From a virus, in the IMG/VR virus record IMGVR_UViG_3300044614_001157, positions 1 to 24,102 of that record: a stretch of 24,102 nt of DNA; one strand, given 5' to 3'. Position numbers and translations under genes: made by a program. Below the pieces are notes generated by a model, which worked only from the letters and a program-made list of their open reading frames with translations, searched no databases and had not been told where the DNA came from. Of the stretch, positions 6,241-14,210 are shown piece by piece. Each line of letters opens with the position of its first letter. The first letter of the stretch is position 1.

Positions 6241-7353
6241 ATGAAAAGAATTATTAGACTAACAGAATCTGATTTAACAAGAATAGTTAAACAAGTTATT
6301 CAAGAACAATCAGAACACGTTAAAAATTTATATAAATCGTGGGCCAATAAAAGGAGTGGGAATCCCGAAAAAGCATTATCAATTATTGATGATGTTTTTA
6401 AATACCAAAAACAATTATCAAAAAAAGATTTTGCTCAATATTCTTCATACGAAGAATTGGTTGGTGATTTAAATAGAATTAAACAAGCCGCCAAATCAGA
6501 GGATGCCACAAAAATTTATGAAGATAAAGATTTGTTGGTATTAAAGGCAAACACACACGAAGCAAGTTGTAAATATGGTGCAGGATCTAAATGGTGTACA
6601 ACCGCAAAAGATGATAGTTCATATTGGAGAAGACATAATGATACTGGAACTGAGTTCTTTTGGATATTCAAAAATAAACCACAAGATGATCCGAATCATA
6701 AATTTTCTTATCACGTAAAAATAACTGGAGAGCCTGATTGGTGTAATGCGGTTAATAATTGTATGTCAACTTCAAGATTATCTGAAGAGTCTTATCCAAA
6801 GAAACATCCAAGATATACTGAAATTATTGAAAAATTACAAGAAATTCATGATGCTAGAGGATTGAAAGCACCAGAAAAAAGTGAAAGACAACGACTTATT
6901 AATCAAATTGTAGATTGGGTTAGTGAAAATTTTGATGAAATTGAACCTATAATCCTTGATAATGATACTATTAATGATATTGTAAACAATTGTACTTCAT
7001 TTTTTTTAGATAGTGATGTATATGATTATTTACCATTTGATATAGATTTAGATGATGAAGACGCGACAGATGAATTTATCAGTAATTTAGAAAAAGAAAT
7101 AAGAAACAATTTTGTACCAGATGTTGATGGGTCATCATTTGAAATTATTCATGGTTTATCGTGGTTAATTAATGATAATTTTGAAGACCCAATTGATTAC
7201 TTAAACGCACACACACCGGAAGAGGTAATTAATGAATTAGGTGAAATGGATTCAAGAGGTCTTGAAGAAATTATTAATGAAGTACTTTATGGTGGAATTA
7301 CAGATCAATTAGTAGATTTCACTCTATATTACGGAGATAATTATCAACCATAA
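6241..7353 (+). CDS. tagged phage protein with ASCKYGAGSKWCT motif
   Basis: A 370-residue protein that begins with the same 22-residue tag as the genes at 1381 and 1825 (ending V-I-Q-E). The middle, about residues 90-145, has YEDKDLLVLKANTHEASCKYG, GSKWCTTA and EFFWIFKNK. This pattern (AS-x-YG-x-G-[ST]-KWC followed by an aromatic strand) is shared by many uncharacterised phage proteins as far as I recall; its biochemistry is not known to me. The C-terminal 180 residues are strongly acidic and helical (DIDLDDEDATDEF). If the tag works like a T4 capsid-targeting peptide, this protein would be packaged and injected. It sits between tRNA-Leu(TAG) and an RNA-only stretch and has its own phage-type promoter. 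Confidence 0.88.
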   Translation: MKRIIRLTESDLTRIVKQVIQEQSEHVKNLYKSWANKRSGNPEKALSIIDDVFKYQKQLSKKDFAQYSSYEELVGDLNRIKQAAKSEDATKIYEDKDLLVLKANTHEASCKYGAGSKWCTTAKDDSSYWRRHNDTGTEFFWIFKNKPQDDPNHKFSYHVKITGEPDWCNAVNNCMSTSRLSEESYPKKHPRYTEIIEKLQEIHDARGLKAPEKSERQRLINQIVDWVSENFDEIEPIILDNDTINDIVNNCTSFFLDSDVYDYLPFDIDLDDEDATDEFISNLEKEIRNNFVPDVDGSSFEIIHGLSWLINDNFEDPIDYLNAHTPEEVINELGEMDSRGLEEIINEVLYGGITDQLVDFTLYYGDNYQP

Positions 7354-8317: not shown

Positions 8318-8396
8318 GTGTTGTTCCCTTGAGAAAGGAATGTAGGAGTAACAAATATAGACGTTAACAACACCGAGGAACTCAACCTCAAATTTG
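8318..8396 (+). ncRNA. repeated structured RNA, copy 1 (GTGTTGTT family)
   Basis: GTGTTGTT (8318-8325) pairs with AACAACAC (8366-8373). TTCCCTTGAGAAAGGAA folds on itself, and GAGG-AACTCAA-CCTC (8375-8389) forms a second hairpin. The first 23 bases are identical to copy 2 at 9644, and the last 30 differ at only three positions, all of them outside the stems. The middle differs in sequence and length (about 26 against 51 bases). Conserved ends with a variable insert suggest a functional RNA. Confidence 0.6.
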
Positions 8397-8476
8397 CTGA
8401 TGTACCAGTGGACGCTTATATCGTCCATACCTGTAGCGGTAAGTTGAAAACGTTGGTTCGAATCCAACCGTCAGTA
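8396..8476 (+). ncRNA. tRNA-like RNA with normal acceptor and T arm but odd core
   Basis: GCTGATG pairs with CGTCAGT (7 bp), and GTTGG-TTCGAAT-CCAAC is a perfect T arm. No usual D arm is found. Instead a strong TGGACG-CTTATAT-CGTCCA hairpin stands only 7 bases after the acceptor, followed by TACC-TGTAGC-GGTA. If the first hairpin is an anticodon arm, the anticodon would be TAT in a D-armless tRNA. A half-tRNA fused to another RNA is the alternative. Confidence 0.45.
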
Positions 8477-8765: not shown

Positions 8766-8959
8766 AAATAAACCTTACAGAAGTCCGAATAGCGCGGATG
8801 AAAGGAACCTTGGCTCTCATAGGATCGCAACCTTTACGGAGAGTTTGAATGTCCCAAGGTACTCTGTAATGGACCCTGCTCTGATGTGCACGTCAACAGG
8901 TGATGGGGAACAAACCATCGATCAAATCCAAACCCGTGGTGAGCACGGAAGGTTTATTT
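8766..8959 (+). ncRNA. 194-nt highly structured RNA closed by an 11-bp stem
   Basis: AAATAAACCTT (8766-8776) pairs perfectly with AAGGTTTATTT (8949-8959), which is followed by more T. Inside, ACCTTGG (8807-8813) pairs with CCAAGGT (8854-8860) and encloses CTCT/AGAG. TTACAGA (8775-8781) can pair with TCTGTAA (8863-8869). CCTG/CAGG (8875-8900), GATGG/CCATC (8902-8919) and CCGTG/CACGG (8934-8948) follow, the last abutting the closing stem. It starts 1 base after tRNA-Gly. No known family is recognised. Confidence 0.55.
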
Positions 8960-9643: not shown

Positions 9644-9824
9644 GTGTTGTTCCCTTGAGAAAGGAAATATAAAGATGAGTGACATTACTTGAATTATGGA
9701 AAACATAATCGTACACTACAACACAGAGGATTTCAACCTCAAATTTGGTAAATGTAATTAGGAGGTAAAAGTGAAATTCTTACCTTAATTAGTGTAGGTG
9801 TATCAGCAACCTAATTACATTACC
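9644..9824 (+). ncRNA. repeated structured RNA, copy 2, with long 3' hairpin
   Basis: GTGTTGT (9644-9650) pairs with ACAACAC (9718-9724), and GAGG-ATTTCAA-CCTC (9726-9740) forms the second hairpin. Both ends match copy 1 at 8318. The variable insert holds its own hairpin ATTATG-GAAAA-CATAAT. Directly downstream GGTAAATGTAATTAGG (9747-9762) pairs with CCTAATTACATTACC (9810-9824), 15 bp with one bulged A, enclosing AGGTAA/TTACCT. Copy 1 has the tRNA-like element in place of this extension. Confidence 0.58.
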
Positions 9825-10312: not shown

Positions 10313-10405
10313 AAACACGTAAACCTAAGTACCCATACCGCTGACGGTGGGCTAAGTAAGATACAATTTCGTACCGCGGGAAGTAGAATGCTTAGGAGCG
10401 TGTTT
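10313..10405 (+). ncRNA. covarying RNA pair, copy A
   Basis: The outer stem is AAACACG (10313-10319) with CGTGTTT (10399-10405). An internal loop TAAA/AG follows, then inner stem CCTAAG (10324-10329) with CTTAGG (10391-10396). The core shares GTACC, GGGCTAAGT, ATACAATT and AGTAGAATG with copy B at 10487. The inner stem differs from copy B at two positions, both compensated, and the outer stem is wholly different yet still paired. That is direct evidence for a selected RNA structure. Confidence 0.7.
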
Positions 10406-10422
10406 TTAAATTATAAAAAATT

Positions 10423-10485
10423 ATGACACCATTATTGTTTTTAATATTTATTTTATTTATCTTTGGGGTAAGAAAAAGAAGATAA
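10423..10485 (+). CDS. 20-residue membrane micropeptide
   Basis: ATG at 10423 opens MTPLLFLIFILFIFGVRKRR, a single hydrophobic helix with a basic tail, the usual design of a very small inner-membrane peptide (N-out, C-in). It lies exactly between the two covarying RNAs. Its AT-rich coding sequence matches the phage's other genes and contrasts with the G+C-rich RNAs on both sides. A role in holin regulation or toxicity is only a guess. Confidence 0.45.
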   Translation: MTPLLFLIFILFIFGVRKRR

Positions 10486-10486
10486 G

Positions 10487-10582
10487 TTTTTGATAAACTC
10501 AAGTACCTGTACAGCGGTGAGTAACGGGCTAAGTTATATACAATTCCTCGGAGCTGGGAGTAGAATGCTTGAGAGTCAAAGG
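10487..10582 (+). ncRNA. covarying RNA pair, copy B
   Basis: Outer stem TTTTTGA (10487-10493) with TCAAAGG (10576-10582), internal loop TAAA/AG as in copy A, inner stem CTCAAG (10498-10503) with CTTGAG (10568-10573). The second and third pairs of the inner stem are T-A and C-G here but C-G and T-A in copy A. The core motifs GGGCTAAGT, ATACAATT and AGTAGAATG are kept, and a small hairpin before AGTAGAATG keeps its pairing with a changed loop. Confidence 0.7.
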
Positions 10583-10585
10583 TTG

Positions 10586-10699
10586 GTCAGGAGCGTAATG
10601 AGGCACGGTGCCGAGTCCTAAAAGTACCACGGTCCATAAGCATTTGGACGCGAGAAACTATAAGGGTTGCTCATTGTGGGTTCGACTCCCTCCCTGACA
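10586..10699 (+). ncRNA. tRNA-like hybrid with enlarged core
   Basis: GTCAGG (10586-10591) pairs with CCTGAC (10693-10698), and GTGGG-TTCGACT-CCCTC is a T arm (one T-T mismatch). About 84 bases stand where a D arm and anticodon arm should take about 45. They include GGCA-CGG-TGCC and GTCCA...TGGAC hairpins. No convincing 7-base anticodon loop is visible. It follows covarying RNA copy B after 3 bases. Confidence 0.4.
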
Positions 10700-10865: not shown

Positions 10866-10957
10866 AGTCAGGTTGGTACAAGGTCGGTTCGAGTCCGATG
10901 GAAGGTCATGGATGTCGGGTAGCTCCCTGTAGAGAGGTTCGATTCCTCTCCTGACTA
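10866..10957 (+). ncRNA. tRNA-like hybrid with two T arms
   Basis: AGTCAGG (10866-10872) pairs with CCTGACT (10950-10956), next to T arm AGAGG-TTCGATT-CCTCT (10933-10949). A second T-like arm GTCGG-TTCGAGT-CCGAT lies inside (10883-10899), and no anticodon arm is evident. In an alternative fold TACCAAC (10857-10863) pairs with GTTGGTA (10872-10878) around an 8-base loop TTAGTCAG. It may be a fusion of two tRNA remnants or a functional tRNA-like RNA. Confidence 0.4.
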
Positions 10958-10962
10958 CACTT

Positions 10963-10982: not shown

Positions 10983-10996
10983 TTATTATTATACAA

Positions 10997-11070
10997 AACC
11001 GGGTAGCTCAGCTGGTAGAGCAATCCTTTTTAAACAGGACGTGTCATTGGTTCAATCCCTTTCCCGGTTT
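10997..11070 (+). tRNA. tRNA with 8-base anticodon loop, probably Lys-like
   Basis: Acceptor AACCGGG pairs perfectly with CCCGGTT, and the D arm GCTCAGCTGGTAGAGC is typical. Anticodon stem TCCT/AGGA encloses eight bases, TTTTAAAC. TTT (Lys), TTA and TAA are all possible readings. Lys is most plausible because the gene is class I, which argues against Leu, and because most genes here end in TAA, which argues against an ochre suppressor. The T stem ATTGG/CCTTT has two T-T mismatches. Confidence 0.65.
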
Positions 11071-11094
11071 TTTTATTTATAAAATTAAAATATT

Positions 11095-12159: not shown

Positions 12160-13758
12160 ATGATTAAAAAACGTAAACTATTAATAATACCATCTGTAAT
12201 ATTGATGGTTATTTTTCTTTTAACTAAAATTTTTGTTTTATCGGGTCTTATTGAAGCCACTGATATAACAAGAATTATTGAGATATCTTGCTTTTTATTA
12301 TTTTCCCCATTATTTTATTTCTTAATGAAATCTCAAACCGTAGAATTAAAAGGTGAATTATTAAAACAAATAAAAGATAGTGAGGATTTTATTGATTCTG
12401 CAACCATTGTTTCTGTTGCCGATAAATACGGTAAAATTACATACGTTAATAAAAAATTTGAGGAGGTTTCAGGTTGGTCTTTAGATGAGGTTAAAGGTGA
12501 AGATCATAGTGTTGTTAACTCTGGATTACAACCTGATGGGTATTGGGGTAAGATGTATGAAACCGTTATGAAAGGTGAGATATGGAATGATGTTGTGACC
12601 AATAAAGGAAAGTCAGGAGAACTTTATTATGTTGATACATATATTAAGGCAAAATTTGACAAGAATGGTAAGTTGGAAGGGTTTTCATCAATTAGACAAG
12701 ACGTTACGGAGCTTAAGAAAAAAGAAGTGGAAATTCGTAATAGAATGAACGCAATAAATAAATCTAATGCTGTTATTGAGTTTGATTTGGAAGGAAACAT
12801 AATTTTTGCTAACGAATTGTTTTTAACAACTATGGGTTATTCATCAATTGATGAAGTTGCAGGAAAACACCATAGAATTTTTATAGACGAAGACCATTCA
12901 AAAAGTGAGGAGTATTCACTTTTTTGGAAAAAATTAAATGACGGTATATTATTTACTGGTGAAATCACTAGAGTTAAAAAAGATGGTTCTTTAGTTCATC
13001 TACAAGCAACATACAATCCGATTGTTGGTTTGGATGGTAAGATTTATCGTGTTATGAAAATAGCAACAGATGTTACCAATTCTTACGAACAAAAGAAAGA
13101 GATTGAAAAGAAAAATACCTATTTAGAACATGCGGCAAAGATATTAAGACACGATATGCACTCAGGTATCAATACATATATGCCAAGAGGGTTAAGTTCT
13201 TTAGAGAGAAGATTAAAACCCGAAGACATATCCGATTTAAAAATAGAGGCACCAATTAGAATGATTAAGGAAGGTCTTAAACATTCACAAAAAGTGTATA
13301 AAGGGGTATATGAGTTTACAAATCTTGTTAAAAAAGACGTTGTCTTAAATAAATCGGAATGTGATTTAAAAGTGATCCTATCTGATTATCTATCATCAAC
13401 CGCATATAGTAGTCAAGTTATTATTGAGGACTTACCAACAATAGAAGTAAACGAGGCGTTATTTTGTACTGCAGTAGATAACCTTATTAGGAATGGTTTA
13501 AAGTATAATGATTCTGACACTAAGTTTGTTAAAATTTATTATGATGAGAATAATATATACATTCAAGATAATGGTAGGGGAATCACACAACAAGATTTTG
13601 ATCACCTACGTAAACCATACGTAAGAAAAGAAGGACAAACAGAATCAGGTACTGGTTTGGGATTAAATATTTGCGTTGCAATTTTAGAAGAACACAGGTT
13701 TACTATTACTTGTGAGAAGAATGAAATAGGAACAAAAATGAAAATAAAAATAAAATAA
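12160..13758 (+). CDS. membrane-bound PAS-PAS sensor histidine kinase
   Basis: A complete 532-residue kinase. Two membrane helices lie at about residues 8-30 and 39-58 with almost no periplasmic loop, so sensing is probably cytoplasmic or within the membrane. PAS 1 is at about 74-190 (SVADKYGKITYVNKKFEEVSGW) and PAS 2 at about 195-310. The phospho-acceptor is H331 in AAKILRHDMHSG. The ATPase domain has D440-N441 and N445 (N box), D470-N-G-R-G (G1) and G497-T-G-L-G501 (G2). All catalytic boxes are intact. The receiver gene follows 14 bases later, then a coiled-coil membrane protein and the endolysin. Phage-encoded two-component systems of this completeness are unusual. No haem or flavin motif is evident. 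Confidence 0.95.
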   Translation: MIKKRKLLIIPSVILMVIFLLTKIFVLSGLIEATDITRIIEISCFLLFSPLFYFLMKSQTVELKGELLKQIKDSEDFIDSATIVSVADKYGKITYVNKKFEEVSGWSLDEVKGEDHSVVNSGLQPDGYWGKMYETVMKGEIWNDVVTNKGKSGELYYVDTYIKAKFDKNGKLEGFSSIRQDVTELKKKEVEIRNRMNAINKSNAVIEFDLEGNIIFANELFLTTMGYSSIDEVAGKHHRIFIDEDHSKSEEYSLFWKKLNDGILFTGEITRVKKDGSLVHLQATYNPIVGLDGKIYRVMKIATDVTNSYEQKKEIEKKNTYLEHAAKILRHDMHSGINTYMPRGLSSLERRLKPEDISDLKIEAPIRMIKEGLKHSQKVYKGVYEFTNLVKKDVVLNKSECDLKVILSDYLSSTAYSSQVIIEDLPTIEVNEALFCTAVDNLIRNGLKYNDSDTKFVKIYYDENNIYIQDNGRGITQQDFDHLRKPYVRKEGQTESGTGLGLNICVAILEEHRFTITCEKNEIGTKMKIKIK

Positions 13759-13772
13759 AAAAAAAGAAAAAA

Positions 13773-14210
13773 ATGATTGACTCAATTTTATTGGTAGATG
13801 ATGAGGATTTATTCCATTTGGTATTTGAAGACGCTTGTTCATTACTTGACATAAGTTTGTCTTTAACCGCATTAAATAGTTCTGACGAAGCTGCAAAGAA
13901 ATTTGAAAAATGGTTCAAAAGTGGGGACGATAACGATAAACCTGAATGTGTGTTTGTTGATTTAAACATTATTGGTAGTTCTTTTGATGGTATAGAATTA
14001 ATTAGAAAAATTAATTTTGAATATGGTAATCACGTAGTTGTTGGTATTATATCATCGTCAAACGAACCTGAAGAACAAGCAAAGGCGGTTCAAGCCGGTG
14101 CTCAGTTTTGGATTATTAAATCTGACGATATTGAACCTCGTTTAGAAGAGTTCAGAAAAGATTATGAAGGGTATAAAAATAGAACATTACCATTTAAAGT
14201 TTACAAATGA
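13773..14210 (+). CDS. single-domain response regulator (receiver protein)
   Basis: A 145-residue CheY-like protein without an output domain. It has the acidic pair D9-D10, the phospho-acceptor D63 in VFVDLNI, the switch Ser cluster at 94-96 (GIISSS) and the conserved K116 in FWIIKS. It starts 14 bases after the kinase and is almost certainly its partner. With no DNA-binding domain it must act by protein contact; the overlapping downstream gene (ATGA, 14207-14210) encodes a coiled-coil membrane protein that is a natural candidate target. It could also feed phosphate into a host relay. Confidence 0.94.
   Translation: MIDSILLVDDEDLFHLVFEDACSLLDISLSLTALNSSDEAAKKFEKWFKSGDDNDKPECVFVDLNIIGSSFDGIELIRKINFEYGNHVVVGIISSSNEPEEQAKAVQAGAQFWIIKSDDIEPRLEEFRKDYEGYKNRTLPFKVYK

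Follow-up and report, generated by a model that had tools for sequence, protein, structure and literature searches.

A conserved pseudoknotted RNA family in the tRNA arrays of phages

The tRNA cluster of phage T4 is known to encode two small non-tRNA RNAs, RNAC and RNAD, whose function is unknown (PMC3014915) and which were reported as late RNAs with a Northern blot check (PMC9697503). In gut phages, self-cleaving theta ribozymes occur beside tRNA genes, 77% of them within 1 nucleotide (nt) of a tRNA 3' end (PMC10879173), and huge phages have already been described as carriers of transfer-messenger RNA (tmRNA) (PMC7162821). Here we describe an RNA element that occurs twice, as copies A and B, in a 24-kb IMG/VR virus fragment (IMGVR_UViG_3300044614_001157, positions 1 to 24,102; referred to below as the window), which contains 22 tRNA genes. 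A sequence-only reading of the window had proposed that the two copies represent a new RNA motif maintained by selection on its structure. Our analysis gives good support to the view that A and B are members of a real phage RNA family of about 94 nt that has no match in Rfam, and its structure, consisting of four stems (P1 to P4) and a pseudoknot, is likewise well supported by comparison of the homologous sequences.

The first scan of viral contigs used the core sequence and returned at least 120 stretches, which were mostly clear homologues with a few coding false positives. The covariance model R1, built from 56 sequences, detected 162 members with 117 distinct sequences in IMG/VR phage contigs, and these score 56 to 114 bits, the next match reaching 20.6 bits. 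Because the first scan had demanded the loop sequence, a second scan demanded the flanking strands only; nearly all of the new members still carried a loop close to GGGYUAARU...AUAYRA, so the core stays nearly invariant even where it is not required and does not drift freely. Among the 117 distinct sequences, a sample partly picked by sequence, 35 columns are at least 97% conserved. A variant search found no sequence lacking the first G of GGGC and only three that were altered at the first U after AUACAA. When the two copies were compared with the 4227 families of Rfam 15, neither matched even at E ≤ 5, and at 12 further loci, under both gathering and permissive thresholds, the only hit covering the element was the tmRNA that encloses it at locus L128. 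No cultured phage was matched by copy A in a blastn search of 50,697 phage records, nor by the tmRNA-embedded form searched against cultured phages, and a pattern scan of 84,980 bacterial and archaeal genomes yielded a single match, on a short contig of an uncultured metagenome-assembled genome.

From the outside inward, the RNA is composed of P1 (about 7 base pairs [bp], free in sequence), an internal loop, P2 (8 bp), CCC RYA, P3 (4 bp), and P4 (3 bp), followed by the terminal loop GGGCUAAGU NNN AUACA AUUY, the 3' strands of P4 and P3, RAGU AGAA, and the return strand of P2. The AUUY of the terminal loop pairs with the RAGU that follows P3, and since this pairing (P5) crosses P3 and P4, the RNA is pseudoknotted, a feature absent from the sequence-only description of A and B. 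In alignment A1, 91.4% of the cells are paired, compared with 75.6% after shuffling and 37 to 46% when the partners were slid, and in 294 cells both partners have changed and still pair, where the shuffles gave 106 ± 8. RNAalifold recovered P1 to P4 with no structure supplied. Under a tree-aware null of our own, an R-scape-like test in which columns were simulated independently along a FastTree tree in 200 replicates, the strongest pairs were the proposed ones, with three pairs of P2, one of P3, and one of P4 lying above every null. One more pair each of P4 and P2, a pair of P1, and the Y-R pair of the pseudoknot (C-G in 77 sequences, U-A in 34, U-G in 5, and a C-A mismatch in 1; E = 0.035) also passed E < 0.05, bringing the total to nine proposed pairs. 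These values bear out the idea of a new motif under structural selection, and the alignment of homologues with a covariation test, which had been suggested as a check, upheld the stems, of which P1 is missing in one subgroup. A second pseudoknot between the CCC after P2 and the GGG of the terminal loop is plausible on the aligned sequences: the strands are always complementary (CCC/GGG in 109 of 117 and CCU/GGG in the other 8), which is consistent with pairing but unproven, as the pairs hardly vary. The extension of this helix (columns 23 and 24 with 39 and 40) is paired in only about half of the sequences, and 8 of the 117 have U-A in place of a C-G pair at columns 44 and 48 inside the loop. 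Energy folding of the core alone did not show the pseudoknotted form, since the program handles no pseudoknots.

By comparing the two copies with the family, we could separate the conserved parts from the variable ones. The coordinates, the shared blocks (GTACC, GGGCTAAGT, ATACAATT, and AGTAGAATG), and the stems of A and B are as first described, and over a block of 50 nt the two copies share 76% identity. The inner stems, CCTAAG/CTTAGG in A and CTCAAG/CTTGAG in B, do differ by two adjacent pairs altered on both strands; their pairing holds but not the length of 6 bp, as the true stem has 8 bp and goes on as UA/UG with A-U to U-A covariation. The outer stems, AAACACG/CGTGTTT in A and TTTTTGA/TCAAAGG in B (the latter with two G-U pairs), differ, yet both pair. 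Between these stems, the TAAA/AG loop is the same in A and B, and its U could pair with the G to leave AAA/A. This constancy does not extend to the family, however, because the exact TAAA/AG is found in only 55 of 117 sequences. One subgroup has the alternative loop TT/TCT with P1 well paired, while in another, flanked by tRNA-Gly (once tRNA-Tyr instead) and tRNA-Gln (L062, L077, L098, L115, L151, and L155 among others), P1 is missing and the element starts at P2, adjoining the tRNA. Since the internal loop is variable and P1 can be missing, the functional unit, judged from this comparison, is P2 to P5, about 65 to 75 nt. For the same reason, of the binding site once assigned to both the internal loop and the core, only the core part stands, and the likely binding or active surface would be the P2-P5 core with its terminal loop.

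The genomic surroundings of the element are dominated by tRNA genes, which lie on its own strand in a ratio of 754:10. The nearest gene for a tRNA or a tRNA-like RNA is at most 12 nt away in 97 of the 129 distinct contexts, and in 21 of the 129 such a gene lies this close on both sides. The upstream distance to the end of such a gene varies (at most 3 nt in 33 contexts and at most 10 nt in 43), while downstream, at 1 to 10 nt, there is usually a tRNA gene or a tRNA-like one, whose identity varies, and no protein gene is fixed there. Exactly one copy is present in each of the 20 contigs of 140 to 317 kb, and the two copies in the window are an exception; a single copy is what would be expected of a dedicated RNA gene and not of a repeated processing signal. 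The carriers fall into two terminase lineages that are only about 27% identical, and the nearest cultured relative of one of them is Flavobacterium phage immuto (55%).

At L128, the element lies inside a tmRNA (RF00023, 62.4 bits with a cutoff of 47) whose tag frame is intact and ends in ADLAVAA and a stop codon. There it follows the PK2/PK3 region and precedes the 3' half of the tRNA-like domain, at the usual site of pseudoknot PK4 in the tmRNAs of these phages. The same arrangement with an intact tag frame is found at L163, whose tmRNA is a clearly different allele, and at L359, and a truncated one occurs at L153; as these embedded copies come from separate metagenomes, an assembly artifact is unlikely. 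We rejected the idea that the element is a tmRNA domain throughout the family, since only these four copies are embedded and the other carriers keep the two separate. A separate tmRNA is encoded elsewhere in 16 of the 20 large carriers, and R1 did not match the ordinary tmRNAs of these 16 (one R1 match per contig though a tmRNA is present). Full-length genes for tmRNA occur commonly among these large T4-type phages (L343 to L355), and ARAGORN missed several of them.

According to the above observations, we give an even chance to the reading that the element is a stand-alone RNA gene, freed by tRNA processing and acting in trans, probably on the translation apparatus. The single copy, the shared tRNA strand, the tight tRNA packing, the closing end stems, the invariant pseudoknotted core, and the lack of a fixed downstream protein gene all argue for a stand-alone RNA gene, and T4 RNAC and RNAD show by precedent that a phage tRNA cluster can contain stable RNAs other than tRNAs; the placement in tRNA operons and the tmRNA fusion in one phage group suggest a target in translation. 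In this scheme, the element would be transcribed together with the tRNAs, and its ends would be cut by the enzymes that trim the flanking tRNAs, downstream by ribonuclease (RNase) P at the 5' end of the following tRNA and upstream by RNase Z or exonucleases at the 3' end of the preceding one. Closed by P1 or P2, the freed RNA may then serve as a rigid binding module in trans while the phage takes over protein synthesis, its most likely target being the ribosome, a translation factor, or a tRNA factor. We infer both the release by tRNA enzymes and the identity of the partner, and the sequences as a whole suggest a new RNA part in viral control of protein synthesis. A more specific version, which we put forward only tentatively, would make the element a detachable translation module that binds the ribosome or a rescue factor in trans and that, in one group, became part of the phage's own tmRNA by fusion in cis, replacing its last pseudoknot.

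Several observations weigh against the stand-alone reading. The fusion into tmRNA probably happened once, in a single phage group. Relatives that lack the element carry tmRNA too, and tmRNA is common in the lineage either way, so co-occurrence proves little and the link to translation is suggestive only. About a dozen of the 129 contexts (for example L018, L092, L123, and L022) have no recognized tRNA or tRNA-like gene nearby. Moreover, the element is missing from one terminase relative that has 26 tRNAs and a tmRNA, and it is therefore not universal in the lineage and not essential everywhere; the other element-free terminase relatives are mostly short fragments or tRNA-free and hence uninformative.

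The likeness of A and B, which lie close together in one window, could in principle reflect chance or a recent local duplication without selection, but this can practically be dismissed: it is already refuted by the 117 distinct homologues with covariation, the score gap, and controls that collapse when the partners are slid. A and B also belong to different subtypes (P4 ACG/CGU and GAG/CUC), each common alone in other phages, so they do not have the look of a fresh local duplication. A self-cleaving ribozyme that parts neighboring tRNAs in the primary transcript, like the hepatitis delta virus (HDV)-like theta ribozymes of gut phages, would account for the compact pseudoknotted fold, the invariant core, and the position directly beside tRNA ends, and it has a precedent in phage tRNA arrays (PMC10879173). 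We nevertheless consider it unlikely, because no Rfam ribozyme family matched at E ≤ 5, there is usually one copy per genome amid 20 to 30 tRNAs, and the element lies at varying distances from the tRNA 3' end; on the 5' side of P2 there is no conserved position that could act as a constant site of cleavage, with P1 and the internal loop variable or missing, and cleavage within the tmRNA at L128 would destroy that tmRNA. About equally unlikely is a decoy or antagonist RNA that acts in trans on immunity by occupying a host defense factor or RNase, such as a tRNA-cleaving nuclease. Its appeal lies in the strongly conserved, binding-like core, the phage-only distribution, and the tRNA-array setting; yet no partner is known, so strict a conservation across divergent phages would be unusual for a component of an arms race, and the tmRNA fusion would not be predicted.

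Somewhat less probable again is a mobile or modular RNA cassette that spreads among phages into permissive sites (tRNA spacers and the tmRNA PK4 site) with no dedicated partner. The many different positions within the arrays, the insertion in tmRNA, and sister phages in which one locus, with its P1/P2 flanks unchanged, bears a different core subtype (copy A of the window compared with L002) agree with such spreading, whereas the single copy in all 20 large contigs and the purifying selection with compensatory changes do not, and neither terminal repeats nor a linked enzyme was seen. We regard as very improbable a cis-regulatory aptamer (riboswitch) governing the following genes, even though the fold and the invariant terminal loop are like those of aptamer domains. 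The element does not sit in the 5' untranslated region of a conserved gene with an expression platform, as it is flanked by varying tRNAs or tRNA-like genes, usually 1 to 10 nt downstream; there is no conserved terminator or ribosome-site switch, and the P1 sequence and the U-run vary.

Table 1. Positions of the two RNA copies, their parts, and adjoining features in the window
Feature	Coordinates	Strand	Basis or remark
Copy A, 93 nt, ACG/CGU subtype	10313..10405	+	covariance model R1, 103.2 bits, E 6e-26
Copy B, 96 nt, GAG/CUC subtype	10487..10582	+	covariance model R1, 98.9 bits, E 1e-24
A, P1 5' strand AAACACG (partner 10399-10405)	10313..10319	+	P1 covariation; dispensable in some homologues
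A, P1 3' strand CGTGTTT	10399..10405	+	as for the P1 5' strand
A, internal loop TAAA (opposite AG 10397-10398)	10320..10323	+	exact TAAA/AG in 55/117 homologues only
A, P2 5' strand CCTAAGTA (partner 10389-10396)	10324..10331	+	both-side changes in 6/8 pairs; four pairs E<0.05
A, P2 3' strand TGCTTAGG	10389..10396	+	as for the P2 5' strand
A, CCC, tentative second pseudoknot with GGG 10349-10351	10332..10334	+	always complementary, nearly invariant
A, P3 5' strand CCGC (partner 10376-10379)	10338..10341	+	C-G/A-U/U-A exchanges; one P3 pair above all 200 nulls
A, P3 3' strand GCGG	10376..10379	+	as for the P3 5' strand
A, P4 5' strand ACG (partner 10370-10372)	10344..10346	+	exchanges among ACG/CGU, GAG/CUC, and GCG/CGC
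A, P4 3' strand CGT	10370..10372	+	as for the P4 5' strand
A, conserved terminal loop GGGCTAAGTAAGATACA	10349..10365	+	conserved even where the scan did not demand the loop; C10352-G10356 to U-A in 8/117
A, pseudoknot P5 5' strand ATTT (partner 10381-10384; crosses P3 and P4)	10366..10369	+	covarying Y-R pair, E=0.035
A, pseudoknot P5 3' strand AAGT	10381..10384	+	as for the P5 5' strand
Small ORF MTPLLFLIFILFIFGVRKRR between A and B, associated, not part of the RNA	10423..10485	+	kept beside the RNA in about 20 loci
tRNA-like RNA, acceptor GTCAGG/CCTGAC, T-arm; starts 3 nt after copy B	10586..10698	+	context

The neighborhood of the element holds further features. The small open reading frame (ORF) between A and B encodes a hydrophobic peptide of 20 amino acids (MTPLLFLIFILFIFGVRKRR), which in about 20 loci shows conservative changes and an RKRR end, and its stop codon either adjoins the element or overlaps it. 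A PD-(D/E)XK endonuclease (PF11645; 9884-10270), possibly of the homing type, is encoded immediately 5' of copy A within the tRNA array. The same array contains a freshwater-1 RNA (RF02979) at 8865-8926, and GOLLD RNAs lie near the element in L059 (6014-6428) and L062 (4451-4861). We also noted more than 100 distinct tRNA-like RNAs of 60 to 190 nt (in the window at 10586-10698 and 10866-10958, and at many of the loci L001 to L118), which combine a constant acceptor stem AGTCAGG/CCTGACT and T-arm, often with a Leu-like D-arm, with a hypervariable middle. Mostly they have no recognizable anticodon arm, many were missed by ARAGORN, and they recall the tRNA-like domains of tmRNA and T4 RNAC. A second recurrent RNA element, GTGTTG TTCCCTTGAGAAAGGAA ... 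CAACACAGAGGA, occurs at 8324-8400 and 9650-9745 and often lies a short way 5' of the main element; it has a hairpin similar to T4 RNAD (TTCCCTGAGTAAGGAA). At 10996-11071, ARAGORN called a tRNA with the four-base anticodon ttaa, that is, with an enlarged anticodon loop. Elsewhere in the window, a PAS-PAS histidine-kinase-like protein (12160-13758) is followed by the receiver domain of a response regulator (13773-14210; Pfam), a possible phage two-component pair, and the ORFs at 1381-1818, 1825-2046, and 6241-7353 have nearly the same N terminus of about 20 amino acids (MKRIIRLTESDLTRIVKRVIQE), like a shared targeting or cleavage tag.

Twister ribozymes have a chain of stems, a terminal loop that pairs back to an internal loop, and a UAA-like internal loop, and all of these recall the present element; we rejected a twister assignment, because the P1/P2 internal loop, where a conserved cleavage site would lie, varies, P1 can be absent, and Rfam gave no match at E ≤ 5. 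Theta ribozymes are likewise small pseudoknotted RNAs beside phage tRNA genes (PMC10879173), but they have a different stem order and are cleaved at a fixed boundary, the tRNA 3' end, whereas our element, usually in single copy, has no such boundary. Membership in the theta or HDV-like class was rejected, since the varying upstream distance does not place a cleavage site a few nucleotides from the tRNA 3' end. Freshwater-1 (RF02979) and GOLLD (RF02032) are also structured RNAs that environmental phages encode in these tRNA arrays, yet they are separate families at other positions with no match to the element. With the tmRNA PK4 (RF00023), the likeness lies in the site that the element occupies in L128, L163, and L359, although tmRNA pseudoknots are simpler and shorter; this presence in tmRNA is a first testable hint at a role for such phage RNAs. 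Like T4 RNAC and RNAD, the element is a non-tRNA RNA that shares the strand of the phage tRNA cluster in which it lies. Homology was rejected, as R1 run with filters off on the T4 tRNA region gave at best 8.2 bits (E about 1); a tRNA-like T-arm sets RNAC apart from the element, and RNAD is similar not to A or B but to another hairpin element of the window. The P2-P5 core and the model define the family well enough for metatranscriptome searches. Extra RNAs in the tRNA arrays of large phages were already known, and what is new here is an RNA family unmatched among 4227 families, which adds a compact, strongly conserved pseudoknotted RNA to the phage tRNA clusters, the home of stable RNAs of unknown function since T4.
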